The position numbers and the translations under genes are program-made. The notes under the pieces were generated by a model. That model was given only the letters and a program-made list of their open reading frames with translations, was not told the DNA's origin and made no database searches. From Halorubrum sp. Hd13 (GTDB lineage: Archaea > Halobacteriota > Halobacteria > Halobacteriales > Haloferacaceae), in NCBI RefSeq assembly GCF_002252755.1, contig NZ_NHOY01000108.1, positions 1 through 45,007 on the forward strand: a stretch of DNA of 45,007 bases, written 5' to 3'. Each line of letters opens with the position of its first letter. Positions within the stretch are counted from its first letter, which is position 1. Of this stretch, positions 6,354-28,667 are shown piece after piece.

Positions 6354-7127
6354 TTAATCGACCTCGTAAGCCAACTTCAGTTCCAGTTCATTTGCTGCAG
6401 CCAAGACAAGATTCGGGAGCTCCTCACGATAGAGATCTCCCGTAAATCGATGTGCAGGCCCAGAGATACTCAATCCGCCAACTGGCTCGTTGTCAGGACC
6501 ACAGACGGCTGCACCGACAGCACGTAGTCCGGGCGTCGCTTCCTCGTTGTTGAACGCGACACCGGACTCACGAATTGTGTCAAGTTCAGCAAACAACTCT
6601 TCACGGTCGGTGATTGTCTGATCCGTCGATGCAGATAATCCACGCTTATCAATGATTTCCTCAACCCTTTCTTTAGGGAGCTCTGCAAGGATAGCTTTGC
6701 TGGACGCACTCTCATGGAGGGGACCGGTCTTTCCGATGCTTGCGTCTGTCTGGACTGCGTTTTCGCCGGACTGAGTGTATAGGTAGTACCTCAGTCCATT
6801 TTCTTCGACAACAAACTGGACTCGTTCACCAGTTTCTGTCGCGAGTTGGTCCACTTTCTGTTTCGCGAGCTCAAACACCTGTTTATCCGTCTGAACGCTT
6901 CCGCCGAGAGTTAGAAATCGCATTCCAAGTCTGTACTCCGTCCCATCACGCACGACGTAGCCATGCTTTCGGAGAGTATTGAGATGTCGATGTACTGTGC
7001 TCGTGGAGATGTCTAGTTCTGTCGCAATTTCTGATAGAGTGATTTCGCTATTGGACTCGACAGTGTGAACGATCGATATGGCCGTATCGACCGTGGAAAC
7101 AGTGTCATTTTCGCTAATATCAGTCAT
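6354..7127 (-). CDS. IclR-family transcriptional regulator
   Basis: The 257-residue protein has the standard IclR layout. An N-terminal winged helix-turn-helix (ITLSEIATELDISTSTVHRH, residues 29-48, with the wing to about residue 70) precedes an IclR effector-binding domain (from about residue 85, including ESASSKAILAELP, FNNEEATPGLRAVGAAV and VGGLSISGP). IclR proteins sense small organic acids and control catabolic and transport genes. Here the neighbouring genes are PrpF1, the TcuA-like flavoprotein and, further on, carboxylate transporters, so it is the likely master regulator of the island. Its own promoter carries the palindrome TTCCCG-N5-CGGGAA just upstream of a TATA element, pointing to autoregulation. 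It is transcribed away from the catabolic genes. The ligand is unknown. Confidence 0.9.
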   Translation of the reverse strand: MTDISENDTVSTVDTAISIVHTVESNSEITLSEIATELDISTSTVHRHLNTLRKHGYVVRDGTEYRLGMRFLTLGGSVQTDKQVFELAKQKVDQLATETGERVQFVVEENGLRYYLYTQSGENAVQTDASIGKTGPLHESASSKAILAELPKERVEEIIDKRGLSASTDQTITDREELFAELDTIRESGVAFNNEEATPGLRAVGAAVCGPDNEPVGGLSISGPAHRFTGDLYREELPNLVLAAANELELKLAYEVD

Positions 7128-7147
7128 GGCTCTACAATGGATGCCAT

Positions 7148-7189
7148 ACTATTTATTTTTCCCGAATAGCGGGAACTACCCGAATAGCG
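7148..7189 (-). promoter_or_regulatory. iclR promoter with operator palindrome, copy 2
   Basis: On the minus strand an A/T-rich TATA element (AATAAATAG, about 7149-7157) lies about 26 bp before the start codon at 7127, as expected for a leaderless haloarchaeal transcript. Directly upstream of it is the perfect palindrome TTCCCG-AATAG-CGGGAA at 7159-7175, covering the position of the B-recognition element. The half-site CCCGAATAGCG at 7161-7171 is repeated exactly at 7179-7189, 18 bp further, so two regulator dimers could bind side by side. GGGAACTACC from this region (7171-7180) recurs at 7299-7308. Confidence 0.55.
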
Positions 7190-7434
7190 TATTTCCTCGG
7201 GTATGGACATCTAATTATCATCTGAGTGATTGATTTGATTGTCACTTTTTGTATGATAGTATACTGTGATCCGTTAGCAAGAATCGTAATAACGTATTGG
7301 GAACTACCTCGTTTCGTAACTAGATAAAATCTTTAAATCTGATTATAGATATTCGTTTAATTATATAGTTATTGAAATTTTAGCGTCTTGTTTTCATATG
7401 GCGGGAAAACCTTCGAAACTGGATCCGGACTAGA
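7190..7434. other. AT-rich intergenic stretch between iclR and the small ORF/prpF1 end
   Basis: No gene is supported. The part from about 7310 to 7400 is very AT-rich (AAATCTTTAAATCTGATTAT and similar) and contains several TATA-like stretches that could serve a plus-strand transcript. The repeated GGGAACTACC (7299-7308) is the only resemblance to the operator region. Confidence 0.35.
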
Positions 7435-7612
7435 GTGAATCTGAGCCCCCAATGGTGGCTGATGAAGTTATATCATGAAACTAGGGATGTTGATTTGTCA
7501 GCAGCGGAGTTGCTCAGCCGAACTAGGCCTCCGAGAAAGATGAAATTCGATGCTCCTCAAGTCTCAACCGTTCGAATGATCCCCATCAATAGTAGCCTGT
7601 TCCGTCCATAAG
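7435..7612 (+). CDS. Small ORF of unknown function, doubtful
   Basis: A frame opens after the TAG at 7381-7383 and runs to 7612, with a possible GTG start at 7435. It reads [20 protein letters not shown] and then [20 protein letters not shown]. The composition is not random-looking (Trp-Trp, a regular Arg/Lys-rich tail), but it is less acidic than its neighbours and I do not recognise a family. It overlaps the 3' end of the oppositely oriented prpF1 by 27 bp. It may be the broken N-terminus of a lost gene, or no gene at all. Confidence 0.25.
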
Positions 7613-8707
7613 TCGTCGCTGTGTACGGTAGACTGTGACACTGTCGACGCTGTGCGGATCGGTCTCGACCAATGCGGTCGCGGACATGGCACCGCGGGGA
7701 TGCCCTAATGTAACCGTCTCCTCGGTGTTCTTCGTAACATTTTCGACGATAGTCCCCGGGAGCCGTGCTGCAGCAGCGGTACAGGCAACGCCAGTGACAG
7801 CATACACCGGATGGAGTTTCCCCATCGACATATATCGAGCAAGAAGGTCCACCTCATCACCCGACACACCATTCCCGTCAGAAGTTTCGTAATCGGACGG
7901 GGGCGACACGAACACGAGCTTCGGGTAACCGGGCGACTCTGTTGACGCGTCCTCGGGCTCATCGACAAACCCGAGCTCTGCGCAGATCGAACCTCGAATA
8001 CGTTCCAGATCCGCGAGGAGATCTGGGTCGTTGTCGATCTCTTCAGGCGTCTCTGTGGCTGTCAGCCCGATGTCAGCTGCCCTAATGAACGCAATCGGAG
8101 TCGTAACGTCAACGACAGACAATTCGAGTGTTCGTCCGTCGATTGTTCGTTCGATAGTCGGTCCGCCGAGTGGGTAGAGCGCGTCGGTCAACGAGCCCGC
8201 CGGGTCAAGGAACGTCGTGTCGATCCGCGCGCCAGTCCCGGGAACCCCGTGTATTGTGAAGTCACCTTCCGTCGCAGCGTTACCGTCCACCAGCGGGATC
8301 CGCTGTTCGATTCGGGCTTCAGTATTCGTATTGTGCAGCTGTAGGTTGACCGCGTCAGCGTCGGGGTCGACATCGACGAATCCCTCATCAACTGCAAAGG
8401 CGCCAATCGCGCAGGTTAGGTTCCCGCAGTTGCCGCTCCAGTCGATAACTGGTTTGTCTACAGCCACTTGGCCGAAAGTATACGAGACATCCGCATCTGG
8501 GACCTCGGCATCGCCGACGACCATGAGCTTCGACGTCGTTGAGGTCGCACCGCCTAGTCCGTCGATTTGTCTGGGATCGGGACTCCCAAAAAGCGAAAGT
8601 ATGGCCTCGTCGCGGTCCGTCTCAGGGAGTTCCTCCCGACGAAGGAAGATTCCCTTGCTCGTCCCGCCTCGAACGATAGCACAACCGAGTGAGCGCTGAT
8701 CGCTCAT
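7586..8707 (-). CDS. PrpF-family C=C isomerase (aconitate/4-oxalomesaconate isomerase-like), copy 1
   Basis: The 373-residue protein has both duplicated beta-barrel halves of the PrpF family. The N-terminus has [18 protein letters not shown] and [16 protein letters not shown] (Lys60), and [14 protein letters not shown] contains Cys94; these match the Lys and Cys that act as acid/base in known PrpF/LigU enzymes. The second half contains FIRAADIGL and [18 protein letters not shown]. Family members move a double bond in unsaturated polycarboxylates, for example 2-methylaconitate cis/trans (PrpF), trans- to cis-aconitate, or 4-oxalomesaconate (LigU, GalD). It diverges from the TcuA-like flavoprotein gene, with an operator-like palindrome in the gap. 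A TATA-like GAAATTTC (about 8731-8738) lies about 28 bp before the start. A paralogue is encoded at 17455-18705. The exact substrate cannot be read from sequence. Confidence 0.85.
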
Positions 8708-9005: not shown

Positions 9006-10448
9006 ATGCACGTTATCGACGGTCACGATCTCGTCGTGGTGGGGTGTGGTATGGCTGGCCTCGCCGCTGGGCTCCGGGCTGCAGAGCTCGACTTGAACCC
9101 GGTGTTGCTTGAGAAGACGCCTCGTGAGGAACGGGGCGGTCAGACGCGGTACGTCCAGTCGTTTCGCATTCCTTCCGCAGATTCCGGACTCCCAGAACGC
9201 GGCTACGAGTTCGACATTTCGGACTACAGCGCAGACGACTACTACGATGACATCATGCACCAGACCAGTGGGAAGGCCGACCCGGACATAGCGCGAACAC
9301 TCGTAGATCTCGCCTCTCCTACCGCTGAGTGGCTCACAGACCACGGAGTCGACTGGGACATGGAACCACCTCACGTCGGCTACACGGTAGCACGGACGTT
9401 CATCGACGGCGAGGATTTGGTTCCCACGCTCATCGAGCGTATTGAGGAACTCGACGGTGAGATCGTCTACAATGCGGAGGCGCGCGACCTCAAGGAGAGC
9501 GACGATGCCGAACGACGAGTGACGGGCGTTGAGGCGCTCGTCGACGGGGAGCGGGTCATCTACGAGGCCGACGCCGTAGTGATTGCCAGCGGCGGGTACG
9601 AGTCCGACGAACGGAAACGGACGGTGTATTACGGCGATGGCTACGATGAGATGACCGTCCGCGGGAGCCCGTACAACACGGGCGGTCCCATCGACATGGC
9701 GCTTGATATCGGAGCGAGGGCGACGGGCCAGTGGAGCGGCGCTCACATGAGTCTCATCGACGGCAATTCGCCGCCCGCCCGAGGTGGTGCGAACCGAATC
9801 GACGGCTACCAGTACTGCGTTGTTCTCAACCACGACGGAGAGCGATTCGTCGACGAGGGACAGGACGCCCGTGCGCACACGTACGCAAAGTTCGGCCGCC
9901 TGTTCTTCGAAGAGGAGGACCACGAGGTGTTCCTGATCGCGGACAGCGAGATGGAAGAGTACCTCTGGCCGCAGGGACCGTCCGACCCGGTGTACGCCGA
10001 CACGGTCGCCGAGGTGCTCGATGAACTCGGCTGCAAACACCCCGAAAAAGGTCAGGAGACCGTCGAAGCGTACAACGACGCTTGTCCGGATGACCCCGAG
10101 TTCGACCCCGAGACGCTTGACGGCAACAACGCCGAGGGAATCGAGCCGCCCAAATCTAACTGGGCCGTGCCGCTCGATAATCCGCCGTACGTCGGCTACC
10201 CACTTACCGGAGGGATCACATTCGCGTTCGGTGGCGTCGCTACGACGACCGACGCAGAAGTACTCGATACGCGTGAAGAGACCATCCCCGGTCTGTATGC
10301 CGCTGGGAACAGCGTCGGTGGGCTGTTCTACGACAATTACCCCGGCGGTACGGGACTGACCAACGCCGCTGTTTATGGGAAAATTGCAGCCGAGTCGGCA
10401 GCCGACGAACTGGAGCATCGAGCCGCGAGAGCGGAGGCTGACGACTGA
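9006..10448 (+). CDS. FAD-dependent dehydrogenase of the fumarate reductase/TcuA (tricarballylate dehydrogenase) type
   Basis: The 480-residue protein begins with the dinucleotide-binding motif LVVVGCGMAGLAAG (Gly13, Gly15, Gly18) and ends with the matching FAD motif GLYAAGNSVGGLFYDNYPGG, the fold of the FAD_binding_2 family. Internal landmarks (EKTPREERGGQTRYVQSFR, VVIASGGYESDERK, LNHDGERFVDEGQD, EGIEPPKSNWA, GGITFAFGGVATT) follow the order in TcuA, which oxidises tricarballylate to cis-aconitate in Salmonella. The enzyme probably desaturates a saturated polycarboxylate using bound FAD. The membrane electron-transfer partner TcuB was not found in the window. An M29/NicX-like gene follows after 64 bp on the same strand and a PrpF gene diverges from it, a logical pairing because PrpF enzymes act on aconitate-type products. 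A related succinate- or ketosteroid-type dehydrogenase is less likely but possible. Confidence 0.8.
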   Translation: MHVIDGHDLVVVGCGMAGLAAGLRAAELDLNPVLLEKTPREERGGQTRYVQSFRIPSADSGLPERGYEFDISDYSADDYYDDIMHQTSGKADPDIARTLVDLASPTAEWLTDHGVDWDMEPPHVGYTVARTFIDGEDLVPTLIERIEELDGEIVYNAEARDLKESDDAERRVTGVEALVDGERVIYEADAVVIASGGYESDERKRTVYYGDGYDEMTVRGSPYNTGGPIDMALDIGARATGQWSGAHMSLIDGNSPPARGGANRIDGYQYCVVLNHDGERFVDEGQDARAHTYAKFGRLFFEEEDHEVFLIADSEMEEYLWPQGPSDPVYADTVAEVLDELGCKHPEKGQETVEAYNDACPDDPEFDPETLDGNNAEGIEPPKSNWAVPLDNPPYVGYPLTGGITFAFGGVATTTDAEVLDTREETIPGLYAAGNSVGGLFYDNYPGGTGLTNAAVYGKIAAESAADELEHRAARAEADD

Positions 10449-10512: not shown

Positions 10513-11490
10513 ATGGACTCAGTCCAAGAAATGAAAGGTGCAAGCATCGTTGTCGACACCTGTGCGGGAATCCAGCCGGGCGAGGACGTCCTCGTCGTCT
10601 CCGACTGGGAGGTCGCAGATGTCGCCGAACGCGTCGCCGCCGCCGCAAACGAGCGCGACGCGAACGTCACGATGACAATGATGGATCCCCGCGAGTACGA
10701 CGGTAATGAACCCGAGCCGTCAGTCGCGGCGGCCATGCTCGAAGCGGACGTGATCATCACGCCCGTCCACCGCTCCATCACCCACTCCAGTGCGACAGCC
10801 GAAGCGAAAGAGGCCGGTGCACGAGTGATCAGCATGGTGAAGTTCACCGACGAACAGCTGGTCCACGGGGGCCTCTACGCTGACTACGAGGGAATGCGAC
10901 CGCACTGCGAGGAGATGGCCAAAAAGTTCGGCGAGGCCGACGAAGCCAGGATTACATCCCCGCAAGGGACCGACGTGACAGTCGGCCTCGAGGGACGTGA
11001 CGGCAACGCCCATCCAGGAATCGCCCACGAGTCCGGCGAATTCACGGCGCTCGTCCATATCGAGGCTAACATCTCCCCCGTAGAAGGAACCACGAACGGG
11101 ACGGTCGTTTTCGATGGTGCCATCCCCAATCTCGATATCGGCGTCCTAGAGACACCTGTCACGATGGAGATTGAAGATGGCGCGGTCACCTCCGTCGACG
11201 GCGGCAAGGAGGCGGATCGCATCGCGAATGTCTGGGCGGAACACGACGACCCCGCTGTATACAACATTGCCCAGTTAGCTGTCGGCATGAATCCCGAGTG
11301 TCCCGAGTTCAACGGCTGGTTCTCCAACGATCACGGGCGCTACGGGAACGTCCACTTCGGTATCGGCACGAGCAGCAATCTCGGTGGTACCACCCGCGCA
11401 CCGGTCCACTTCGACGCGATGATGGCCGAGCCGACGCTCGAGCTCGACGGCGAAGTTGTGCTCGAAGACGGCGAGTTCACGTTTTTCTGA
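10513..11490 (+). CDS. M29 aminopeptidase/NicX-like metalloprotein, copy 1
   Basis: The 325-residue protein resembles metallopeptidase family M29 and the homologous 2,5-dihydroxypyridine dioxygenase NicX. The N-terminal Rossmann-like half (residues 10-115, IQPGEDVLVVSDWEVADVAE) is followed by a metal-binding half with GTTNGTVVFDG, VTMEIEDGAVTSVDGG, NVHFGIGTSSNLGG (His281) and VHFDAMM (His299 and Asp301). The last His-x-Asp matches a ligand pair in both families. At the position where M29 enzymes and its paralogue have a ligand Glu (AEFAMG), this copy has Gln254 (NIAQLAVGMNP), so its metal site may differ. The start is fixed by the TATA element at 10482. It could be a ring-cleaving dioxygenase, a hydrolase or a peptidase; sequence alone does not decide. 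Confidence 0.75.
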   Translation: MDSVQEMKGASIVVDTCAGIQPGEDVLVVSDWEVADVAERVAAAANERDANVTMTMMDPREYDGNEPEPSVAAAMLEADVIITPVHRSITHSSATAEAKEAGARVISMVKFTDEQLVHGGLYADYEGMRPHCEEMAKKFGEADEARITSPQGTDVTVGLEGRDGNAHPGIAHESGEFTALVHIEANISPVEGTTNGTVVFDGAIPNLDIGVLETPVTMEIEDGAVTSVDGGKEADRIANVWAEHDDPAVYNIAQLAVGMNPECPEFNGWFSNDHGRYGNVHFGIGTSSNLGGTTRAPVHFDAMMAEPTLELDGEVVLEDGEFTFF

Positions 11491-11538: not shown

Positions 11539-12501
11539 ATGAGGCGGGCACTCGTCGATCAGGACTTACAGCCCGATGAGGCACTTAAAGAGAAGGTTGG
11601 CGATCGGATCGAGCTTGATATCGGCGTGGAGTCGACCGAAGAGGCAGTGATTGAGGCACTTGATGGTGTATCTGTACTGTTCACCACGTCGCGGCTACCG
11701 ATATCTCAGCGGGTTCTAGAGACGGCCAACGACCTCGAGGTCGTCGGGAAGATTGGGACCGGCCTCGACAATGTCGATCTCGACGCCGCGGCTGAGTTAG
11801 GAATTGGCGTGGCGTACACACCGGGACTGAACGCGGCCGCGGTAGCTGAGTACACCGTGGGGCTCGCACTTGCGGTGTCACGTGACATCCTCCAGAACGA
11901 CCGCCTTCTGGAGGCCGGCGGGTGGCGCGACGAGACTGAGCTGAGCACCTCGGTCCACGGTAAGACCGTTGGTGTGGTCGGATTTGGCGACATCGGCAGC
12001 CGCGTCGCTGCCTTCTTTTCTGGGCTCACGACGAACGTGCTCACGTATGACCCGTACGTCTTCGAAGAGGACACCGACATCACCGGGGCTGAGCTAACCG
12101 ACTTAGGGGACCTTCTCGAGCGCAGCGACATCGTCACGGTCAACGCGGAGTTGACTGACGAGACGGAGGGGCTGATTGACGCTCCCGAACTGGATCGGAT
12201 GCAAGAGTCAGCGATTTTGGTAAACACCGCCCGAGGATCAGTCGTTTCTGAGTCGGCGCTGATAGACGCGATAGAGACCGACGAAATCGCCGGCGCTGGC
12301 CTCGACGTGTTCGAGACCGAGCCCCTGCCCCAGGACTCTCCATTCCACAAGTTCGACAACGTGATTGCCACGCCCCACGTCGCCGCGACGACCACGGAGA
12401 GCCGAACCCTCAGCATCGACGCGCTGGTCGACAGCGTCTTCGGGATGCTTGACGGGGACGGCGCACCGGAGCGGTACACGGCAGTCGCTCTCGAGTCGTA
12501 G
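11539..12501 (+). CDS. D-isomer-specific 2-hydroxyacid dehydrogenase
   Basis: The 320-residue protein has the D-2-hydroxyacid dehydrogenase architecture. A split catalytic domain surrounds an NAD-binding domain with VGVVGFGDIGSRVAAFF (residues 144-160). Catalytic residues are in place: Arg232 in VNTARGSVV, Glu261 in DVFETEPLP and His280 in ATPHVAA. It reduces a 2-oxoacid or oxidises a D-2-hydroxyacid with NAD(H). It resembles 3-phosphoglycerate dehydrogenase but lacks the C-terminal regulatory domain of the biosynthetic SerA. It follows the M29/NicX-like gene by 48 bp on the same strand and is probably in the same transcript, so a hydroxyacid or ketoacid intermediate in the island's pathway is likely. 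Confidence 0.85.
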   Translation: MRRALVDQDLQPDEALKEKVGDRIELDIGVESTEEAVIEALDGVSVLFTTSRLPISQRVLETANDLEVVGKIGTGLDNVDLDAAAELGIGVAYTPGLNAAAVAEYTVGLALAVSRDILQNDRLLEAGGWRDETELSTSVHGKTVGVVGFGDIGSRVAAFFSGLTTNVLTYDPYVFEEDTDITGAELTDLGDLLERSDIVTVNAELTDETEGLIDAPELDRMQESAILVNTARGSVVSESALIDAIETDEIAGAGLDVFETEPLPQDSPFHKFDNVIATPHVAATTTESRTLSIDALVDSVFGMLDGDGAPERYTAVALES

Positions 12502-12643: not shown

Positions 12644-13087
12644 TTACTCTGGGGTTTCGCTCACCCGCGGCACGGCGAGAGTCGGGCGGTCAACGCTCGT
12701 GAGAACCTGTTGTGCAGTGCTCCCGAAGACAGCCTTCCCGACAGCGGAGCGCTTCCGAACCCCGATCACGATATAGCGCGCATCCCTGCGCTTTGCAAGC
12801 GAAATGATTTCGCCTGCGGCGTCCCCCACCGCACCGGTCGCTACGAACTCGTCAACGACTGGCTCCGCAATTTCCGAAGCGATTGAGGCAGCGATCTCTC
12901 GGACTTCGTTGGGGTCGACCGCGTCTGCGGTCTCTGACACGCTCGTCTGTTCGAGATTGACAAATTCGTCTCGACTCAACACGTGAAGCACCTCCAGCTC
13001 GTCGTCGAACTGGCGCGCAAGCGTCTCCGCTGCTTCAAGTACATTATGCGAGTTTTCCGCTTCTTTGACTGCGACCAAAACGGTCAT
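12644..13087 (-). CDS. Universal stress protein, UspA family
   Basis: The start is set at the ATG at 13087 (MTVLVAVKEAENSHNVLEAA), which fits the family; the open frame extends upstream without similarity. The 147-residue protein is a single UspA domain with the nucleotide-binding motif GVRKRSAVGKAVFGSTAQ near the C-terminus. Such ATP-binding proteins are common beside transport and catabolic genes in haloarchaea. It is encoded between the hydroxyacid dehydrogenase (convergent) and the aldehyde dehydrogenase (divergent, 85 bp apart). Confidence 0.85.
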   Translation of the reverse strand: MTVLVAVKEAENSHNVLEAAETLARQFDDELEVLHVLSRDEFVNLEQTSVSETADAVDPNEVREIAASIASEIAEPVVDEFVATGAVGDAAGEIISLAKRRDARYIVIGVRKRSAVGKAVFGSTAQQVLTSVDRPTLAVPRVSETPE

Positions 13088-13172
13088 ACCTGTCTCATGA
13101 TTGCTCTTACGTATAGTACTTACTCGCCCCACTACCTCAACGGTTATCACTTTCGAGACAGATGAGAGTTGT

Positions 13173-14666
13173 ATGGACGCAAGCGAGTTGCTATCACAGC
13201 AACAGGAGTATCAGATGATTATCGATGGAGAGCAAACGGAAGCAGCTGGCGGCGAACGGTTCGACGTCTCCTATCCGTACCAGAAGACGATGTGGGCGTC
13301 AGTGCCCGAGGCGACAGCAACGGACGTCGACGACGCCGTGACAGCCGCTCGACAGCGATATGAGAGTGACTCCTGGCAGGCTCGATCGGCAACTGAGCGG
13401 GGGAAGTTACTGTTCTCTCTCGCCGACAAGATTGAAGAACACACCGAAGAGCTCGCCGCGCTGGAGACGCTATCGAACGGGAAGCTGATCCGCGAGATGC
13501 GGGGCCAAGTCGAGAGCCTCCCGGATTGGTACCGGTATTACGGGGGACTCGCAGACAAGGTGCAAGGCGACACGATGCCGATCGAACAAGACGGTTTCTT
13601 CGGGTACACGACGCCCGAGCCGTACGGCGTCGTCGGGGCGATCACGACGTGGAACTCACCTCTATCGCTGGCAACCTACAAGATTGCGCCGGCCATCGCG
13701 GCCGGCAACACGGTGGTGTTGAAACCGTCCGAGCTGGCGCCAGTCTCGGCGCTCAGGCTCGCAGAGCTGGCGGACGACGCGGGTTTCCCCTCGGGCGCGC
13801 TCAACGTGGTCACGGGCTTCGCCGAGGCCGGCGCGGCGCTCGCGGGTCACGACGATATTGACCGAGTGGCGCTAACCGGCGGTCCCGAGGCGGGACGCGC
13901 GGTCGCGACCGCTGCGGCCGACAACATCGTCCCGAGTACGCTGGAGCTCGGCGGAAAGAGTCCAAATATCGTGTTCCCAGATGCTGATCTAGAAAACGCG
14001 GTGACGGGCGCGATCAAGGGGATCTTCGCCGCCAGCGGACAGACCTGCATCGCCGGGTCACGGTTGTTCCTCCACGAGGAGATCGCCGAGCAGTTCTTGA
14101 ATCGGCTGGTTGACCGCACCGAACAGATCGATCTCGGCGATCCGCTCGACGAGGAGACAGAGATGGGACCCATCGTCTCGGAGTCTCAACTGTCCAGCGT
14201 TCAGGAACACGTCGAAAGCGCCATCGACGACGGAGCAACACTTTTGACCGGAGGACCGGAGCGCGACGTCCCCGGCGGGCCGTTCTATCCGCCGACAATT
14301 CTGACCGATGTAACGAACGACATGGCAATCGCACGCGAGGAAGTGTTTGGCCCGGTGCTGGCGGTCCTCACGTTCGAAACTGAAGACGAGGTCATCGAGA
14401 AGGCGAACGATTCCGAGTTCGGGCTCGCGTCGGGCGTGTGGACGAAGGACATCCAACGCGGCCACCGGATGGCCGACGCGCTGGAGGCGGGCGTCGTGTG
14501 GCTCAACACGTACCGGAAGTCGTCATTTACGATGCCATTCGGCGGCTTCAAGCAAAGCGGAATCGGGGTTGAAAAGGGAATAGAGGCGATAGAGGAGTAC
14601 GTGCAGACGAAAAGCGTCTGGGTCGAAACGGAAGACGAGGTCTCAGACCCGTTCCGTCTCGTCTGA
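13173..14666 (+). CDS. NAD(P)-dependent aldehyde dehydrogenase
   Basis: The start is set at the ATG at 13173 (MDASELLSQQQ); the frame is open further upstream but overlaps the promoter region of the divergent stress-protein gene. The 497-residue protein is a full-length ALDH superfamily member. Visible landmarks are TTWNSPL (Asn161, oxyanion), LKPSELAP (NAD ribose), STLELGGKSPNI (general base Glu258) and FAASGQTCIAG (catalytic Cys292), with EEVFGPVLAV further on. It oxidises an aldehyde to a carboxylic acid. The stop codon abuts that of the convergent ThDP enzyme: TGATCA at 14664-14669 serves as both stops. A decarboxylase making an aldehyde for this enzyme is an obvious pairing, but the substrate is unknown. 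Confidence 0.9.
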   Translation: MDASELLSQQQEYQMIIDGEQTEAAGGERFDVSYPYQKTMWASVPEATATDVDDAVTAARQRYESDSWQARSATERGKLLFSLADKIEEHTEELAALETLSNGKLIREMRGQVESLPDWYRYYGGLADKVQGDTMPIEQDGFFGYTTPEPYGVVGAITTWNSPLSLATYKIAPAIAAGNTVVLKPSELAPVSALRLAELADDAGFPSGALNVVTGFAEAGAALAGHDDIDRVALTGGPEAGRAVATAAADNIVPSTLELGGKSPNIVFPDADLENAVTGAIKGIFAASGQTCIAGSRLFLHEEIAEQFLNRLVDRTEQIDLGDPLDEETEMGPIVSESQLSSVQEHVESAIDDGATLLTGGPERDVPGGPFYPPTILTDVTNDMAIAREEVFGPVLAVLTFETEDEVIEKANDSEFGLASGVWTKDIQRGHRMADALEAGVVWLNTYRKSSFTMPFGGFKQSGIGVEKGIEAIEEYVQTKSVWVETEDEVSDPFRLV

Positions 14667-17398: not shown

Positions 17399-17454
17399 AC
17401 GATCCGTGCAACCGAGACGAAAATAAGTGCCCCGCCCTCCAGCGGGACGATCGA

Positions 17455-18705: not shown

Positions 18706-18836
18706 ATCCACGACGAGGCGCAAGCGACGAATATAGGTTTCGCTGCGAGCGACAGCAACGGCGTGAATGGCCCCTCGGAGCGCGACAGTTTGCTCCAATT
18801 GCCGGGAACTCTACTACCAAGTGTGGGTGTCTCATC

Positions 18837-21262: not shown

Positions 21263-22654
21263 TCAGGTGACCAGTGGCCAATAGAGGGTCCAGCAGAGCA
21301 CGACCGCGAGGACAGCGTACCCCGTCGTGACGAGCCCCGTTACGATCACGTCAATCAAAGACATCGGTCCTTTGTCGTAGGTGAGGAGCACCGTCGTCGT
21401 GTTGAACGGGAACACGGTCGAGCAGCCGACCACCATCAGCAGCGACAGCGAGAGGAACAGCGCATTTATCTCGAACGTCTCGGCAAATCGCAGCATTACG
21501 GGAAATAACACGAGAAGCGATGCCGACGCCGTCGAGAAGAACAGCCGGACGACGAACGCCAGTGCCAACAGGAGCGCAACAGTCTGCCAAAGAGGAAGTG
21601 CGCTGAACGGAAGCACACGCTCCGCGTTTCCGATCACCCACGAGAGGACTCCGGACGACTCCAGTACGCCGAGTAAGGAGAACATCGTCCCGAAGACGAA
21701 GATGATTCCCCAACTGATCGTCGTCATGTCATCGCCTGTAACGATCCGAATCCCTGGTAGCGCGAGAAAGAGGATTGCCGCGGTGGGGGGGAAAATAGTC
21801 GGAATACCAATAAATGACCCGACGATCCAGAGGAAGATAACCGCGGTCATTACGCCGATGACGATCCGTTGGTCCCGGTCGAATCCGGTTCCAGATGGAC
21901 GCTCCTCCCGTGGTGTGGGAACTGATGCGGCGCCGACAGGGTGGATGAAAAGAATGGTCACAACCGCGAGGACAAAAATGAACACCGTCGGCGGGAGCAT
22001 TAACACTGCCCAGTCCAGCCAAGAGATGTCAGTAACAGACGAGCGGATAAACTCTGAGGAAAGGATCGCCATGCCTCCGCCGGTCATCAGTCCCATCGAC
22101 GCGACCGGGTTGACGTGACCGAGGATCAGGTGAGCGTCCAGGAGGAAGTTCTCGTCGTCCGAGACGTCCCAGAGTTCGTCGAGTTCCTCAAAGATGGGTA
22201 GGAACGCTACGGTCCGAGCCAGCGCCGACGGCATCATAAACGAGAGTGCGAGTAATCCCGCGGCGGCCAGTCGGATCGTCTCTCCTGGCGAGTCGGCCAC
22301 GAGCAGCCGTCGCGCGATCATCTGGTCCAGCCCGACCTTGGAGATCGTGTTTCCGAGGAGCAGCAGAATGAGGAGAAAGAAAACGAGCCGCGACGAGAAG
22401 CCGCTGGCAGCCGTGGCGAACGAGTCTACGAGACCAAGCACATACAGGAGCACGACGGTCGTGAGACTCGATATCACAAAGGGAACGGGCTTCGTCAGCC
22501 ACATTACGAGCGCGAAAAAGAACAAACCGAGTACGCGCTGACCGGTCGCAGACAGTCCGTTAACCGGGATCCCTGCGACGCTTCCGTACAGACAAACTAC
22601 GCTCAGCGCTACGCCGATCGCCGGTACAATATCAACATCTCGCAGACTTCGCAT
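21263..22654 (-). CDS. DASS/SLC13-family anion (di-/tricarboxylate) transporter
   Basis: The 463-residue membrane protein has about eleven hydrophobic segments in two repeated halves. It shows the family features MPSALARTVAFLPIFEEL in the first half and VVGCSTVFPFNTTTVLL in the second, at the positions of the Ser-Asn-Thr substrate/sodium motifs, with GGGMAILSSEFI between them. DASS proteins (CitT, SdcS and VcINDY relatives) import or exchange succinate, citrate, tartrate and similar acids. It diverges from the tctCBA operon, and a palindrome resembling the iclR operators lies in the 246-bp gap, so both carboxylate uptake systems may be co-regulated. An assignment to the related ArsB/NhaD group cannot be excluded. 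Confidence 0.8.
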   Translation of the reverse strand: MRSLRDVDIVPAIGVALSVVCLYGSVAGIPVNGLSATGQRVLGLFFFALVMWLTKPVPFVISSLTTVVLLYVLGLVDSFATAASGFSSRLVFFLLILLLLGNTISKVGLDQMIARRLLVADSPGETIRLAAAGLLALSFMMPSALARTVAFLPIFEELDELWDVSDDENFLLDAHLILGHVNPVASMGLMTGGGMAILSSEFIRSSVTDISWLDWAVLMLPPTVFIFVLAVVTILFIHPVGAASVPTPREERPSGTGFDRDQRIVIGVMTAVIFLWIVGSFIGIPTIFPPTAAILFLALPGIRIVTGDDMTTISWGIIFVFGTMFSLLGVLESSGVLSWVIGNAERVLPFSALPLWQTVALLLALAFVVRLFFSTASASLLVLFPVMLRFAETFEINALFLSLSLLMVVGCSTVFPFNTTTVLLTYDKGPMSLIDVIVTGLVTTGYAVLAVVLCWTLYWPLVT

Positions 22655-22900: not shown

Positions 22901-24001
22901 ATGACAAATGACCGCATGTCTCGCAGGTCACTCCTGCGATATACTGGTGGGGCATCGACAATCGCAATAGCCGGCATCGCCGGATGTTCGGGCAACGGCG
23001 GTGACGGCGGCGACGGCGGCGACGGCGGCGACGGTAGCGACGGCGGCGACGGTAGCGACGGCGGCGACGGCGGCGACGGCGGGGACGAATACCCGAACCA
23101 GCGGATCGAGTACATCGTTCCCTTCAGCGAAGGCGGCGGGACCGACACGTACGCCCGACAGATCATGCCGCAGGTATCGGAGATCCTCGGTGTCTCGATC
23201 CAGATCAACAACGTGCCGGGATCGGCGTCGCTCCGCGGCGCGGGTCAGATGGTCCGCGCCGAACCCGACGGGTACACCTTCGGTGGATTCAATCCGCCGT
23301 CCACGCCGGTGTCTTACCTGCTGAACCCGCCGGACGACTGGGAACTCACGTCGCTTCGCGGAGTGTGCGGGTACGCCCGGACGCCGTACGTCATGTATTC
23401 GAACCCCGACCAGGGCTTCAGCGAACTCGCGGACGCTATCGAGGCGTTCGACAACGGCGATATCACCAACATGGGCGGTCAACAGCGAGGCGGGATCGTC
23501 AACGTGATCGCCGAGATCATGAAGAACAACGACGAGTACGGCCTGAGTTGGGAGAACTACGTCGGCTACGACGGCGGTGGCCCGCTGGTTCAAGCCGTCG
23601 CGTCCGGCGAGGTGCCCGTCGGTGTCACCACCGACGCGTCCGGTCTCAGCGCGGCCGAGGACGACCGCGTCGACGTGATCGCGGTCTTGTCAAGTCAGGG
23701 GAGCAACGTGTTCCCCGACGTGGCGTCGGTGACCGATCAGGGGTACCCCAACATCGACTACGTCGGTCAGCTCACTCGCTGTATGTGGATGCCGGGCGAC
23801 ACGCCGGACGAGCGGGTTCAGACGATGTCAAGTGCCGTCGAAGAGGCGCTCCAGACGGAGCCGGTCCAGTCGTGGTCCGAGGAGACCGGCAACATCATCG
23901 AGTACAACCCGCCGGAGTTCGCCGACGAAGTGCTCCAGCAGTCCTTCGAACAGATTCCCGAGAACGTGGACCTCGAGGCCCTACGGGAAGCGACGAATTG
24001 A
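22901..24001 (+). CDS. tctC: TctC-type solute-binding lipoprotein of a tripartite tricarboxylate transporter
   Basis: The 366-residue protein begins with a twin-arginine signal (MSRRSLLRYTGGAS) and the lipobox IAGC, so it is exported folded and anchored outside the membrane. An ATG at 22916 is an alternative start that also keeps the signal. A Gly-Gly-Asp repeat linker follows, then the BUG/TctC binding domain (RIEYIVPFSEGGGTDTYAR, VPGSASLRGAGQM, EPDGYTFGGF, YDGGGPLVQAVASGEVPVG). Members bind citrate, tricarballylate, terephthalate, sulfolactate and other carboxylates. It is first in the tctCBA order, with 137 bp before tctB. The usual genes for all three parts are present, so the transporter should be functional. 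The ligand is not predictable from sequence. Confidence 0.88.
   Translation: MTNDRMSRRSLLRYTGGASTIAIAGIAGCSGNGGDGGDGGDGGDGSDGGDGSDGGDGGDGGDEYPNQRIEYIVPFSEGGGTDTYARQIMPQVSEILGVSIQINNVPGSASLRGAGQMVRAEPDGYTFGGFNPPSTPVSYLLNPPDDWELTSLRGVCGYARTPYVMYSNPDQGFSELADAIEAFDNGDITNMGGQQRGGIVNVIAEIMKNNDEYGLSWENYVGYDGGGPLVQAVASGEVPVGVTTDASGLSAAEDDRVDVIAVLSSQGSNVFPDVASVTDQGYPNIDYVGQLTRCMWMPGDTPDERVQTMSSAVEEALQTEPVQSWSEETGNIIEYNPPEFADEVLQQSFEQIPENVDLEALREATN
22997..23086 (+). repeat. Ten 9-bp in-frame repeats encoding the Gly-Gly-Asp linker
   Basis: Ten consecutive units of the form GGC-GGC-GAC (two of them GGT-AGC-GAC, one GGC-GGT-GAC, one GGC-GGG-GAC) encode a Gly/Ser/Asp linker between the lipidated Cys and the binding domain. 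Such acidic flexible linkers are common in haloarchaeal lipoproteins. The near-perfect DNA repeat makes length variation by slippage likely. Confidence 0.85.
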
Positions 24002-24138: not shown

Positions 24139-24729
24139 ATGCCACAATTTGACATGGTACGGCAACAACTCGGTGATTTGGACAGTGAACAGATTCTCCT
24201 CGGATTCTTGATAGTCGTTTCCGGCTATATGGTGATTCAGACTTTCCAGTGGAACCGAACGACGGCGGTGTTCCCGCGGTACATCGGGTCGGCGACGCTG
24301 ATCGGCTCGGTGCTGCTTTTGATTCGCGAGTACCTCCCGGAGCCGTTTTACACCGTCGTGGCCGGTTCGACGTCGATCACCGGCGGGAGTCGAGAGACGG
24401 AGGAGGTGCAAGCGAAGAAGGGCGAGGAGCGATCTCCGGCGGAGAGGGAGGCGGACATCCCCGATCGGCCGCTCTCGCCCGCCGTGTTCACCGCTGTCCT
24501 CATCACGTTGTACATCGGTCTGAGCTACCTGTTCTCGATGTTTCTGATGACGCCGCTGTTCGTGGTCGCGTACACCGCCTGGTTCGGTCAGCCGTGGTAC
24601 ATGATCGCGCTCTTGACCGGAATAGGGACGCTTCTCGGGTACGCGTTCTCCACCGTGCTGATCGTTCCGGTCGACCGCGGGGTATACGTCGGCGATCTCC
24701 TGCAGATCGGAATCTTGGGGGTAGTGTAG
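24139..24729 (+). CDS. tctB: TctB-type small membrane subunit
   Basis: The 196-residue protein has an N-terminal hydrophobic segment (QILLGFLIVVSGYMVIQTF), a long charged loop (about residues 85-115), and three further hydrophobic segments, including SPAVFTAVLITLYIGLSYLF and MIALLTGIGTLLGYAFSTV. This is the four-helix layout of TctB, the small membrane partner of TctA in tripartite tricarboxylate transporters. TctB proteins are poorly conserved, so the call rests largely on size, topology and its place between tctC and tctA. The stop codon is directly followed by the tctA ATG. Confidence 0.82.
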   Translation: MPQFDMVRQQLGDLDSEQILLGFLIVVSGYMVIQTFQWNRTTAVFPRYIGSATLIGSVLLLIREYLPEPFYTVVAGSTSITGGSRETEEVQAKKGEERSPAEREADIPDRPLSPAVFTAVLITLYIGLSYLFSMFLMTPLFVVAYTAWFGQPWYMIALLTGIGTLLGYAFSTVLIVPVDRGVYVGDLLQIGILGVV

Positions 24730-26229
24730 ATGGCGACAGTCGGCGCCCTCTCCGAAGCGATCGGCATCGCGTTCGGGTGGCCCACCATCGGCCTGATGTT
24801 GGCCGGGCTACTCCTCGGTATCTTCTTCGGGTCGCTTCCGGGGATCGGTTCCTCGCTCGGGATGGCGATCATCCTCCCGCTGACGCTTCCCCTCGACGGG
24901 ATCAGTGCGATCATCCTCCTCGTGAGCATCTACAGCGGTGCGATGTACGGGGGAAGTATCGCGGCGATCCTCATCAACGTCCCCGGCACCGCGGCGGCGG
25001 CGGCGACGACGTTCGACGGCTATCCGATGTCCAAACAGGGGAAAGCGAAAAACGCCCTCGCGATGTCGGCGGTTGCGTCATCGGTCGGTGGGTTATTCAC
25101 TATCATCGCGCTGTTCCTGATCTCTCCCGTGCTCGTCGAGATCGTCCTGCTCTTCGGGTCGCCCGAGTACTTCCTCATCGCGCTGCTCGGCCTCTCGATG
25201 ATCACGATCGTCTCACAGGGGTCGATGGTGAAGGGGCTCGTGGCGGGCTTTTTCGGTCTCTTACTGACCACTATCGGTATCGCGCCCGTCGAGCCCACGC
25301 TCCGATACACGTTCGGTTGGTTCGCGATCCGCGACGGGCTGTCGTACGTCGCGGCGCTGATCGGCCTGTTCGCCGTGACGGAGATGCTGATACTCGCCCG
25401 TGACCAGACGGAGATCGCGGACGCCGACATCTCCATCAGCGGCAGTCTCCGAGAGGGAGTCAGAGAGACCATCCGACACCCGGTGACGGTAATAAAATCG
25501 GCGTTCATCGGGATGGGTATCGGTGCGATTCCGGGCTCAGGGGCGTCGGTGTCGAACTTCCTCGCGTACGGTGAGGCGATGCGGGCCTCGGAGAACGCGG
25601 AGGAGTTCGGCAACGGGAACCCCGAAGGTGTTATGTCCTCGGAAGCGTCGAATAACGGGACCGTCGGCGGATCGCTCATTCCGACGCTTTCGTTCGGGAT
25701 CCCGGGGAGCGGTTCGACCGCGGTCCTGCTCGGTGGGCTCATCATGCACGGGCTCATTCCCGGCCCGGACCTGTTCACGAGCCAGCTGCCGAAGACGTAC
25801 AGCATGTTCATCGCGCTGTTCGTCGGGAACATCGTCATCCTCGTGTTGGGCCTCACCGTTATCACGAAGCTCAGCTACGTGACGCAGATCGACACCAACT
25901 ACATCATCCCGATCATCCTCGTGCTCGCGACGCTCGGTGCCCTAGCGCTTCGGAACAACTGGGTCGACGTCTTCACGATCCTGGCACTGGGATTCATTGG
26001 CTACTACATGCGCAAGCACAACTTCTCAATGGTTGCATTCGTCTTAGGAATCGTCCTCGGACCGATTGCCGAGCAGAATCTCCTCCGGTCGCTCCAGCTC
26101 TCGGGCGGTTCGCTCGGGATCTTTGTTAGCAAACCGCTTTCGCTGATGTTGGTTATCGCGATCGTCGTCGTCTTACTCGGCCCGTTCATTGGACCCAAAC
26201 TCAAGCAACTGGTCGCCAGACGCACCTGA
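24730..26229 (+). CDS. tctA: TctA-type large membrane subunit
   Basis: The 499-residue protein is the twelve-helix permease of a tripartite tricarboxylate transporter. Family motifs are clear: LGIFFGSLPGIGSSLGMAI, YSGAMYGGSIAAILINVPGT, FDGYPMSKQGKAKNALAMSA, GMGIGAIPGSGASVSNFLAY, EGVMSSEASNNG and PTLSFGIPGSGSTAVLLGGL. It couples uptake of the TctC-bound substrate to the ion gradient. It starts immediately after the tctB stop with no gap, so the two are translationally coupled. Downstream lie a hairpin and an orphan C-terminal coding fragment rather than another transporter gene. Confidence 0.93.
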   Translation: MATVGALSEAIGIAFGWPTIGLMLAGLLLGIFFGSLPGIGSSLGMAIILPLTLPLDGISAIILLVSIYSGAMYGGSIAAILINVPGTAAAAATTFDGYPMSKQGKAKNALAMSAVASSVGGLFTIIALFLISPVLVEIVLLFGSPEYFLIALLGLSMITIVSQGSMVKGLVAGFFGLLLTTIGIAPVEPTLRYTFGWFAIRDGLSYVAALIGLFAVTEMLILARDQTEIADADISISGSLREGVRETIRHPVTVIKSAFIGMGIGAIPGSGASVSNFLAYGEAMRASENAEEFGNGNPEGVMSSEASNNGTVGGSLIPTLSFGIPGSGSTAVLLGGLIMHGLIPGPDLFTSQLPKTYSMFIALFVGNIVILVLGLTVITKLSYVTQIDTNYIIPIILVLATLGALALRNNWVDVFTILALGFIGYYMRKHNFSMVAFVLGIVLGPIAEQNLLRSLQLSGGSLGIFVSKPLSLMLVIAIVVVLLGPFIGPKLKQLVARRT

Positions 26230-26330: not shown

Positions 26331-26435
26331 GAGAAATTCACCTACGACCTCCACCGGCAGATCGAGGGCGGCGAGAAGCTCGCGACCAGCGAGTTTGCCG
26401 ACGCCGTCGTCGAGAGCATCAACGAACTCGGCTAG
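26331..26435 (+). pseudogene. Orphan 3' end resembling isocitrate dehydrogenase (icd)
   Basis: Directly after an in-frame TAA (26328-26330), a frame reads EKFTYDLHRQIEGGEKLATS and then EFADAVVESINELG before a TAG. The pattern YD-x-x-R-x-(I/M)-x-G-x-x-x-(L)-x-(T/C)-SEF-x-DA-(V/I)-(V/I)-E matches my recollection of the very C-terminus of isocitrate dehydrogenases, such as the end of E. coli Icd. Only 34 residues are present, with no start codon and no upstream portion of the gene. It is therefore a duplicated or displaced 3' end. In bacteria the 3' end of icd is a known prophage integration site, so this could be an attachment-site scar; that is inference. The rest of the interval 26230-26591 contains no gene. 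Confidence 0.55.
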
Positions 26436-26558
26436 GCTAACCGTCCGGATTCGCAGTCGATGGATCGGAGCGTTATTCCAACCATCGGGGATTATTTTCC
26501 ACTCAGACGAACAGGAGATGAAAATCTGCATTCTGTATCTGGAGCACCTCATTGACCT

Positions 26559-26568: not shown

Positions 26569-26591
26569 TTCGTCTCGTTACTCCATGTGGC

Positions 26592-26981
26592 ATGGTACGC
26601 AGATACGACCCGTCCGAAATCCCGTCAGTGCACAATCTTGCTGATGCCCCTACCGCGAAGGAGGGACCTGGGTTCGAGCAGGTCGTCTTCCGGGGTGTCG
26701 ACCAAATGGTCGGCATGACTACGATCGGGCCCGAGAGAGAAGACAAGCCACAGCACAGTCATCCGTGGGAGCAGATGACCGTCGTTATCGAAGGGGAAGT
26801 CGACTTCCTCGTTGATGGAGAGCGGGTCTCACTTGGCGTCCACGACGCGGTAGAGATACCACCGGACGTCCCACACGCGTCTCGCGCCGTCTCCGAGGAC
26901 CCAGCGCGCCTACTCGCATTCTGGCCCCTTCGGGAGGACCGACTTGACGCGACCGACTACCAAACAGAGTTCGATGTCTAG
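26592..26981 (+). CDS. Single-domain cupin protein
   Basis: The 129-residue protein is one cupin barrel. Cupin motif 1 appears as QHSHPWEQMTVVIEGEVDF, supplying His55, His57 and Glu60 or Gln61. Motif 2 appears as DAVEIPPDVPHASRAV, supplying His95. These residues normally hold one Fe, Mn or Zn ion. Small cupins of this kind act as dioxygenases, isomerases or decarboxylase partners in acid and aromatic catabolism, or as regulators, and the reaction cannot be told from sequence. It lies 45 bp before an SDR gene on the same strand, downstream of the tct operon, and probably belongs to the island's pathway. Confidence 0.82.
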   Translation: MVRRYDPSEIPSVHNLADAPTAKEGPGFEQVVFRGVDQMVGMTTIGPEREDKPQHSHPWEQMTVVIEGEVDFLVDGERVSLGVHDAVEIPPDVPHASRAVSEDPARLLAFWPLREDRLDATDYQTEFDV

Positions 26982-27026
26982 TCGAATAACGCTTGAACGA
27001 TCGGGGGGATTCGAGGTGAGTCAAAC

Positions 27027-27797
27027 ATGGATCTGACCGGAAGAACCGCTCTCGTCACCGGGTCAAGTCGGAATATCGGTCGATCGACGGCAGTCCGACT
27101 CGCGGAGGCCGGAGCCGATGTGGGGGTCACTGCCCGGACCGACAAGGAGGGATGTGAGGAAACTGCACGTCGCGTTCAAGAAGCCGGTAGCGAAGCCGCA
27201 GTCGCGCTCGGTGACATCGGTGATCCGGACGACGTCAAGTCGGTAGTTGACGATATCCGCGATCAACTCGGCCCGATCGACGTTCTCGTGAACAACGCGA
27301 CCTACCGTCCGTCGAAACCGTTTCTTGAGGTAGAGACAGAGGACATTGATCGCGTGCTCGACATTAATTTCAGGGGCGTGTTCCAGACGACGCAGGCGGT
27401 CGTTCCAGACATGAAGGCTCAGGGAGGGGGCTCAGTCGTGAACCTGATCGGGGCGATGGTGTACCTCGGCAAGCACGGGCATGCCCACTCGTACGGTTCA
27501 AAGCTAGGAATCGAAGGACAAATACGCCAGTTGGCAACCGAATTGGGTTCAGATGAGATCCGCGTGAACGGGGTCTCGCCGGGTCTCATTGACGTTAACC
27601 GGACCCGGACTGATGAGTGGGAGCGGATCGAGCGGGAAATAATCCGTTCGACCCCACTCGGACGACTCGGAGAGGTTGAGGAGGTGGCCAACGCGTGTTG
27701 CTTCCTCGCGTCGGACGCCGCGTCGTTCGTGACTGGACAAGTATTACACGTCAACGGCGGGACTTATCCGACACCGACGCTGGTTCCAGAAGAGTAA
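27027..27797 (+). CDS. SDR-family oxidoreductase, copy 2
   Basis: The 256-residue protein has the cofactor motif TGSSRNIG (residues 11-18), VLVNNATYRPSKPF in the NNAG region, and a C-terminal FVTGQVLHVNGG. These place it among 3-oxoacyl-ACP-reductase-like SDRs. The active-site region reads HAHSYGSKLGIEGQIRQL: a Lys is present, but Tyr is three rather than four residues before it, so the classical Tyr-x3-Lys spacing is not met; a His five residues before the Lys might take part. It should reduce a ketone or oxidise an alcohol with NAD(P)(H). It follows the cupin gene and converges on another SDR gene. Confidence 0.85.
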   Translation: MDLTGRTALVTGSSRNIGRSTAVRLAEAGADVGVTARTDKEGCEETARRVQEAGSEAAVALGDIGDPDDVKSVVDDIRDQLGPIDVLVNNATYRPSKPFLEVETEDIDRVLDINFRGVFQTTQAVVPDMKAQGGGSVVNLIGAMVYLGKHGHAHSYGSKLGIEGQIRQLATELGSDEIRVNGVSPGLIDVNRTRTDEWERIEREIIRSTPLGRLGEVEEVANACCFLASDAASFVTGQVLHVNGGTYPTPTLVPEE

Positions 27798-27869
27798 TGG
27801 ATTGAAAATAGATCCCATTATCACAGTCACTATGGGAGCTACGGTGAGCGGCGAATGCTCACCGCTAAA

Positions 27870-28667
27870 CTACAGGAGACGCGAACTCCACCCGCCGTCA
27901 ACGGGTAACACCGACCCAGTGATGTAGGATGCGGCCTGTGAGGAGACGAAGGCGACTGCCTTGCCGAACTCCTCAATTGTGCCCATCTCCGGAAGTGGGA
28001 CCTTCTCAACGCGAAGTTCGCGCACCGCCGCCTCTGTTACCCCCTCGCGCTCGGCCCGTGCAGCGATTTTCGACTCGATCCGGTCAGAGAGTACACCACG
28101 AGGGGCGACGCAGTTCGATCGGACTCCATTTTCCCCCTCCTCATTGGCGAGAATCTTCGAGAGTCCGTAGATACCCGGTCGAAACACGTTTCCAAGAGTA
28201 CCGTGCGGCGTCGGTTCCGCCGCAGAGGCGGCGACAAGGTGTGTGACCGCGCCGCCACCATCCCGAAGCCGGGGGAGAGCGGCCTTGCACTGAACCACCG
28301 TGCTCCGGAGGACGTCGTTGTATCCTCGATCGAACTTCTCCAAGGAAGTCTCCTCGAAAGAGGTGTTATCCGGACCGCCGTGATTGGTTACCAGCACGTC
28401 AAGCCCGCCAAACTCCGTTGTTGCCGCTGCGATTCCGGACTCGATCTCATTGCGGTCAGCGAGGTCCATCTCGACAGTGAGCACCGCATGCTCGTCACAG
28501 CCGGTCTCGTCGAGTATCGCCTCGCGAGCACGAGCAAGGTTATCTGCGCTGCGGGAGGCAACCGTTACGTTCGCTCCCTCCGCAGCGAACTGCGTGGCCG
28601 CCCCCAGTCCGAGCCCTTTGCTTCCCGCGGCTACGAACACCGATGCTCCGTCAAGCCCTAAATCCAT
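27870..28667 (-). CDS. SDR-family protein with atypical active site, copy 3
   Basis: The start is set at the ATG at 28667 (MDLGLDGASVFVAAGSKGLG), although an in-frame ATG occurs at 28682. The 265-residue protein is close in type to the SDR at 16607-17398. It has the cofactor motif AAGSKGLGLG, VLVTNHGGPD in place of NNAG, and SYITGSVLPVDGGW near the end. The active-site region reads LGNVFRPGIYGLSKIL, so Tyr and Lys are absent from the aligned catalytic positions, although a displaced Tyr-x3-Lys (YGLSK) occurs. It is the last gene of the apparent catabolic island and is convergent with the preceding SDR gene. The function within the pathway is unknown. Confidence 0.82.
   Translation of the reverse strand: MDLGLDGASVFVAAGSKGLGLGAATQFAAEGANVTVASRSADNLARAREAILDETGCDEHAVLTVEMDLADRNEIESGIAAATTEFGGLDVLVTNHGGPDNTSFEETSLEKFDRGYNDVLRSTVVQCKAALPRLRDGGGAVTHLVAASAAEPTPHGTLGNVFRPGIYGLSKILANEEGENGVRSNCVAPRGVLSDRIESKIAARAEREGVTEAAVRELRVEKVPLPEMGTIEEFGKAVAFVSSQAASYITGSVLPVDGGWSSRLL

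Follow-up and report, generated by a model that had tools for sequence, protein, structure and literature searches.

A conserved haloarchaeal gene island, most likely for catabolism of tricarboxylates, that carries a linked pair of M29-family metalloproteins

The 45,007-nucleotide stretch of DNA analyzed here (the window) spans contig NZ_NHOY01000108.1 (C73) of Halorubrum sp. Hd13 (GCF_002252755.1) from end to end. It contains a block of about 20 genes that is a genuine and conserved catabolic island, whose substrates are most likely tricarboxylates of the aconitate and tricarballylate class. The chemistry at the core of the island is largely known already, and the two conserved M29-family metalloproteins, M29-A and M29-B, are the part without an explained role. 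We propose, with about even confidence, that this is a haloarchaeal tricarboxylate-utilisation island whose products would import, desaturate and isomerise the acid and drain it through aconitase and isocitrate dehydrogenase (the icd product) to 2-oxoglutarate; the gene linkage and the icd association described below are observed, and the substrate is inferred.

The linkage is observed directly in relatives. We used two genome samples, 391 genomes of the class and 148 of the family to which Hd13 belongs, both of which are even draws rather than all genomes; counts are among the matches listed, in which weak-end matches are incomplete. Fifteen of the 391 class genomes, Hd13 included, hold an M29-A homologue at 78% identity or more (the next match is at 54%), and all fifteen have M29-B and the TctCBA transporter genes beside it. 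PrpF-A, a PrpF-superfamily isomerase, and a DASS/SLC13-type symporter adjoin M29-A in 14 genomes each, a TcuA-like FAD dehydrogenase in 13 (the G213 match being partial), and a D-2-hydroxyacid dehydrogenase (HADH) in 12, or in 13 with a looser threshold, which alone admits the G290 gene. The partial G213 match is the one in L138; a fuller TcuA match of that genome, with one internal stop, is about 13 kb from M29-A, and the TcuA gene of G196 lies far away. At E≤1e-120 the TcuA-like gene is present in 30 of the 391 genomes, namely 14 of the 15 with M29-A as against 16 of the 376 others (Fisher 1.2e-16, not corrected for kinship). We further compared 16 loci over stretches of about 20 kb (29 kb for L125, 34 kb for G062 and 45 kb for Hd13 itself), scoring as absent any gene with no match in the stretch at E≤1e-10. 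Some open reading frames (ORFs) chosen automatically in GC-rich DNA of relatives were on the wrong strand, and such coordinates were accepted only with an agreeing tblastn match or a product read by eye. In G062, which belongs to another genus, 15 genes from that for the IclR regulator to tctA are present in the same order at 55–91% identity, with only the TcuA gene inverted, and smaller gene sets recur in 14 further loci; the grouping is therefore not due to chance. The homologues thus lie together in the relatives instead of being scattered and unlinked, and the proposal in an earlier note on this sequence that the island is one linked unit for an imported di- or tricarboxylate is supported. 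A named carrier of the cluster is a plasmid of Haladaptatus pallidirubidus (L125), and in four named haloarchaeal plasmids the TcuA and PrpF genes are neighbours or share an operon with tctCBA. Our literature searches, judged from titles and abstract openings, found no description of a cluster of this kind in archaea.

The genes of the island and its borders are as follows; families were assigned by Pfam and NCBIfam scans of the window ORFs (39 scanned), and fractions refer to the 16 loci.
6354–7127, minus strand: IclR-type regulator (Pfam IclR_C, 3.5e-37); homologue in 13/16 loci, its own included.
7586–8707, minus strand: PrpF-A, PrpF-superfamily double-bond isomerase (Pfam PrpF); homologue in 15/16 loci.
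9006–10448, plus strand: TcuA-like FAD dehydrogenase (NF006130); in 14/16 loci, with a partial match in G213.
10513–11490, plus strand: M29-A, metalloprotein of the M29/NicX fold (Pfam M29, 27.2 bits; gathering score 27).
11539–12501, plus strand: HADH (Pfam).
12671–13087, minus strand: universal stress protein (USP) homologue (tblastn 43% identity, E 4e-29); in 16/16 loci.
13101–14666, plus strand: aldehyde dehydrogenase (ALDH) of the add-on module (Pfam, 1.7e-172).
14667–16484, minus strand: thiamine diphosphate (ThDP)-dependent decarboxylase-like enzyme of the add-on module (PF02775/02776).
16607–17458, minus strand: SDR1, lacking the usual YxxxK (Pfam).
17455–18798, minus strand: PrpF-B (Pfam PrpF); homologue in 7/16 loci.
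18690–20030, plus strand: MFS transporter (Pfam MFS_1, 1.2e-48).
20207–21193, plus strand: M29-B, M29-type metalloprotein (Pfam M29, 53.8 bits); in 16/16 loci.
21263–22654, minus strand: DASS/SLC13-type carboxylate symporter (Pfam Na_sulph_symp, 1.3e-32); in 15/16 loci.
22901–24001, plus strand: TctC substrate-binding protein (Pfam/NCBIfam); 16/16 loci.
24139–24729, plus strand: TctB (Pfam/NCBIfam); 16/16 loci.
24730–26229, plus strand: TctA (Pfam/NCBIfam); 16/16 loci.
26331–26435, plus strand: 3' remnant of icd, the last 34 codons and stop (tblastn protein match 26334–26429).
26592–26981, plus strand: cupin (Pfam); adjoins the cluster in 6/16 loci.
27027–27797, plus strand: SDR2, in which Ser takes the place of the usual catalytic Tyr (Pfam); 6/16 loci.
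27870–28682, minus strand: SDR3, with YxxxK kept (Pfam); 7/16 loci.
28812–29363, minus strand: AhpC-type peroxiredoxin, a possible island member; adjoins the cluster in 2/16 loci, its own and that of G382.

All of the gene families named in the earlier note are placed by these scans within 6354–28682, at the positions it gave. Of its three carboxylate-type transporters, the TTT system (TctCBA) and the DASS symporter are of that type; the MFS protein matches 21 NCBIfam models with none above cut-off. The DASS model gives 139 bits against a cut-off of 198.6. The start of M29-A, whose ORF opens at 10375, is predicted to be the Met codon at 10513, where several homologues begin, and that of the MFS gene is probably later than its ORF opening, given the overlap with PrpF-B. 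Cupin, SDR2, SDR3 and AhpC have no match at the G062 locus, and from this the first three were suspected to be mere flank, a view dropped after inspection of L132 and L134. The three genes lie beside the cluster at 86–91% identity in G146 and at 64–74% in G382, and the right-hand part therefore belongs to the island. SDR1 lacks both the usual catalytic Tyr and Lys, as do its counterparts in G062 and L147, and the Ser of SDR2 recurs in three homologues. The IclR gene has a GC content at third codon positions of 0.49, compared with 0.62–0.83 in the other 13 island genes for which it was calculated, as if it were a separate acquisition.

The isocitrate dehydrogenase gene is a repeated partner of the cluster. 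A copy of icd or its remains is found there in 10 of the 15 genomes, or 11 if a 27-aa match at a contig end in G232 is included (E 0.075, counted apart as too weak alone). Seven of these have a match at E≤1e-30 at the end of the cluster (G360, G306, G213, G011, G037, G290 and G196, the last broken by an assembly gap). In six relatives icd lies 3' of the HADH gene on the same strand, with gaps of 174 bases in G306 and 106 bases in G213, and in G360 it follows the DASS and USP genes. In G141 there are 80 aa of icd at a contig end, and the G284 remnant is internally deleted such that residues 1–58 are joined directly to 407–419. The tail in Hd13, located 3' of tctA, is what the icd product of G146 matches when the 45-kb window is searched by tblastn (91% across 32 aa, E 7e-13; the reversed window gives no icd match at E≤1), and its DNA is 94–96% identical over 83–91 bases to the icd genes of Hd13 and its congener G146. 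The cluster copies of G011 and G037 are the only icd matches in those genomes at E≤1e-30, and Hd13 has a complete icd elsewhere. Hd13 also has an aconitase (PF00330; 908 bits to the aconitate hydratase model NF005558, cut-off 612), the other aconitase-family gene found being LeuC. With aconitase and a complete icd in the genome, aconitate that is made or imported can therefore reach 2-oxoglutarate, and a route from tricarballylate or trans-aconitate through cis-aconitate and isocitrate can close without an aldolase. The earlier note was right that a LigK-type gene is lacking (PF03737, the RraA-like family, has no match in the whole genome, whereas half of the 14 control genomes, among them Haloferax, have one), but its statement that known routes do not close is not supported by these findings.

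The cluster copies of icd do not form one clade, as we had considered: the six that can be placed group with the icd genes of their host families (five changes, at least four of them forced, in a 17-row comparison), a pattern for which gene conversion would account, as would recruitment on several occasions. The two G290 copies (L169/L170) are a mosaic of identical and diverged blocks that points to gene conversion, those of G360 (L163/L164) are 99.6% identical in DNA, and both pairs look like products of gene conversion or recent duplication. Use of icd as an integration site, suggested by the 3' tail in the window, was set aside because G284 keeps a 5' part as well as the 3' end and six genomes keep whole copies; the tail is better explained by degeneration of a cluster copy that was formerly complete.

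Both isomerases are clear members of their family (357.5 and 329.8 bits to Pfam PrpF, cut-off 27). The enzyme SoPrpF is reported to isomerise trans-aconitate, and variants at K73 or C107 to fail to support growth on propionate (PMC5690661); the PrpF-superfamily proteins TarA and TbrA are described as aconitate isomerases (PMC11495376). Counterparts of these catalytic residues, Lys and Cys, assigned by motif context rather than from a printed alignment, are present in PrpF-A (TSKL with K60, NCGN with C94) and PrpF-B (TSKL with K99, NCGN with C133). The TcuA-like protein passes one TcuA model, NF006130 (399.3 bits, cut-off 369), and fails another, TIGR02485. The desaturation and isomerisation steps that the earlier note had assigned to these enzymes are supported, as predicted functions within a linked unit.

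The resemblance to characterized systems is partial. In the tar operon of Bacillus velezensis, as described in PMC11495376, a PrpF-superfamily isomerase (TarA) is likewise combined with an importer (TarB) and a regulator, and the product, cis-aconitate, likewise enters the tricarboxylic acid cycle; the island differs in having two PrpF proteins, the TcuA-like enzyme, TTT and DASS transporters, the M29 pair, HADH, icd and a regulator of the IclR type. In the Salmonella tricarballylate operon tcuABC (PMC10468695), as in the island, a TcuA-like FAD dehydrogenase is combined with a tricarboxylate transporter; no TcuB is found by TIGR02484 in the Hd13 genome, and the partners in the island are instead PrpF and M29 proteins.

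The metal site of the M29 proteins corresponds to the one in M29 aminopeptidases. The metal ligands of the aminopeptidase AmpS are given as E253, E319 (bridging), H348, H381 and D383, with Y355 nearby, the six residues making up the EEHYHD motif of M29 aminopeptidases (PMC7023490). In a profile alignment M29-B keeps all five ligands (E188, E255, H281, H299 and D301) and M29-A keeps four (E230, Q300, H327, H345 and D347, in ORF numbering), with Gln replacing the bridging Glu; since the Tyr is replaced in both, M29-B has five and M29-A four of the six motif residues, and at about 325 aa they are shorter than AmpS, AmpT and PepS (408–418 aa). The Gln is present in all 14 haloarchaeal M29-A rows and a Neorhizobium row of a 39-row alignment, the other 24 having Glu, and also in the G141 and G011 proteins outside that alignment. 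M29-A homologues in four haloarchaeal families have 81–91% identity (that of G008 has 78%), compared with 28–78% for the M29-B, PrpF-A, TcuA, Tct, DASS and HADH proteins encoded beside them, G062 excepted, and M29-A is the most interesting part of the island. The Neorhizobium protein (50% identity) is encoded on a plasmid of strain SOG26 (L126) near TctC, TctA and M29-B-like genes, but its other partners are of the MmgE/PrpD, MR/MLE and OCD families, and within 29 kb neither PrpF nor TcuA is matched at E≤1e-8. The 2,5-dihydroxypyridine dioxygenase NicX, of the same fold family by sequence profile, has Phe, His265, Leu300, His318 and Asp320 in the five AmpS ligand columns, and it is reported to be inactive without any one of H265, S302, H318 and D320 (PMC7910607). 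M29-A has Q, G, H and D at these four positions and M29-B has E, A, H and D, so that each keeps two of the four iron ligands, H318 and D320. We infer that M29-A and M29-B are more likely to be hydrolases than ring-opening oxygenases, a reading that agrees with the surroundings of more distant haloarchaeal M29 homologues, which are found close to ABC transporters (in Natronosalvus these carry a dipeptide-type annotation).

These replacements tell against the step in which the earlier note had a pyridine ring opened by the M29 proteins, and with it against the broader idea of a ring route, in which these proteins would open an N-heterocyclic or aromatic acid and the product would drain through PrpF. 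Among solved structures NicX gives the M29 profile by far its best match (2.3e-30, compared with 3.2e-7 for PepS), but the 39 window ORFs that were scanned include neither a ring-hydroxylating enzyme nor nicotinate genes, and the genome has no RraA/LigK-like gene. On the metal ligands in particular, we regard ring opening as very improbable. A citrazinate/cis-aconitamide route was also considered and was dropped when a literature search yielded nothing usable. A second alternative concerns methylated dicarboxylates, with PrpF acting as a methylitaconate or dimethylmaleate isomerase and its product being hydrated and then cleaved by a lyase of the phosphoenolpyruvate (PEP)-mutase family, as in the end pathway of nicotinate fermentation. 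The solved structure nearest by sequence to both PrpF proteins is 3-methylitaconate isomerase (3g7k; 327 bits for PrpF-A with the next at 248, and 258 bits for PrpF-B with the next at 225), PrpF-B-like genes lie near LeuCD-type and PEP-mutase-family genes in Halalkalicoccus FCH27 (49% identity) and near PEP-mutase-family, isopropylmalate-dehydrogenase-family and D-2-hydroxyacid dehydrogenase genes in Halobaculum halobium (55%), and the Hd13 genome has one PEP_mutase match over cut-off. However, neither the required hydratase nor the lyase is among the scanned ORFs of the island, aconitase and LeuC account for all aconitase-family genes detected in the genome, and icd would have no place in such a scheme, which we consider unlikely. 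It is rather doubtful, too, though it deserves somewhat more weight, that the island is two joined units, one comprising IclR, PrpF-A, TcuA, M29-A, M29-B, HADH, TTT and DASS, and the other ThDP, ALDH, SDR1, PrpF-B and MFS for another acid, for example a 2-oxoacid converted via an aldehyde to an acid. Homologues of ThDP, ALDH and SDR1 occur together in only two of the 16 loci, those of Hd13 (G000) and G062; L125 has the first unit without HADH and lacks ThDP, SDR1, PrpF-B and MFS; and L147 has M29-B with SDR1-like, MFS-like, HADH, DASS and Tct genes but no M29-A or PrpF match. Proteobacterial ThDP homologues (31–49%) are beside ALDH or TctA in part of their loci, with no PrpF or M29 match there. 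Against a division is the retention of both sets in G062, interleaved and in the same order, and the presence of PrpF-B homologues beside the first unit in five further genomes.

Several observations also weigh against the tricarboxylate route itself. The NicX match counts here, and so does the fact that both PrpF proteins are nearest to 3g7k and not to an aconitate isomerase, weak as such a structural match is as a guide to substrate. Both PrpF proteins also score too low for either of the more specific models, that for PrpF and that for 4-oxalomesaconate tautomerase. The TcuA-like protein scores 227.5 bits to TIGR02485, far under the cut-off of 372.55, and TIGR02484 for TcuB has no match in the genome at E≤0.001, this being a model that hits one of 14 control genomes, none above cut-off, and whose reach into archaea is unproven. 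Haloarchaeal TcuA-like genes are also found next to genes of the MmgE/PrpD and PEP-mutase families, in displayed stretches of 19 kb where no PrpF is annotated, and the family is thus not specific to tricarballylate; given these partners and the model scores, family membership does not fix the substrate. (Such a plasmid cluster, of TcuA, MmgE/PrpD, PEP-mutase-family, iron-type alcohol dehydrogenase and MFS genes, is almost the same in Halorussus aquaticus and two Haladaptatus species; L151, L152 and L153.) G008 has M29-A, M29-B and TctCBA, but neither TcuA (E≤1e-30) nor PrpF (E≤1e-20) is matched in its genome. Finally, the role of the M29 proteins is left unexplained by the proposed route, and icd may be at the cluster for reasons outside the pathway.

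The distribution of the add-on genes also bears on the decarboxylation and oxidation steps of the earlier note: the ThDP and ALDH genes are there, but their occurrence together in two of the 16 loci makes them additions and not part of the core. Among the 148 family genomes, G062 is the only other one with a close ThDP homologue (85%; the next is at 31%); an ALDH homologue lies beside the cluster only in G062 (84%), with L125 having a 40% ALDH about 12 kb from M29-A. ThDP relatives at 56–66% are found in four contigs of marine or haloarchaeal metagenome-assembled genomes (MAGs), stretches of 4–14 kb in which no other island gene is matched. The ThDP-binding motif is PDG...NN in place of GDG...NN, with QDG in two marine MAG homologues. 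In the marine haloarchaeal MAGs L036 and L037 the ThDP homologue adjoins genes that look UbiD-like by eye, and in L036 there are FAH-like- and molybdenum-hydroxylase-like-looking genes nearby.

To the right of the island is a DDE transposase gene (31576–32328), followed by a second cluster (32693–44718) encoding two class-III aminotransferases, an aldehyde ferredoxin oxidoreductase, an arginase-family protein, an Lrp/AsnC regulator and an ABC transporter with a solute-binding protein, perhaps for use of polyamines.

Under the tricarboxylate reading, TctCBA and the DASS symporter would take up an acid resembling tricarballylate, aconitate or isocitrate, perhaps in conjugated form, and the M29 pair, which appear to be built like metallo-amidases, might release or prepare it, this being the weakest step. 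To judge from their families, the TcuA-like flavoprotein would desaturate a tricarballylate-type acid to an aconitate, and PrpF-A and PrpF-B would shift the double bond or reverse its configuration, with cis-aconitate as the product. Chromosomal aconitase would then form isocitrate, and isocitrate dehydrogenase, encoded in the cluster of several relatives and a fossil here, 2-oxoglutarate. HADH and the SDRs may handle side inputs of hydroxy acids, and the distribution of ThDP, ALDH, SDR1 and MFS suggests a later add-on. We tentatively raise the further possibility, which we think has less than an even chance of being correct, that M29-A and M29-B give conjugated tricarboxylates (amides, esters or lactones) a new point of entry, resembling neither M29 peptidases nor NicX. 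M29-A would then have a Gln-modified and strongly conserved metal center, and the pathway would be coupled to isocitrate flux closely enough for several lineages to retain in the cluster a second icd of host type. The analysis of the M29 proteins weakens a misleading link to NicX and sets M29-A apart as a subfamily, and the TTT transporters, PrpF and TcuA-like enzymes of haloarchaea gain a single testable pathway that would end at isocitrate.

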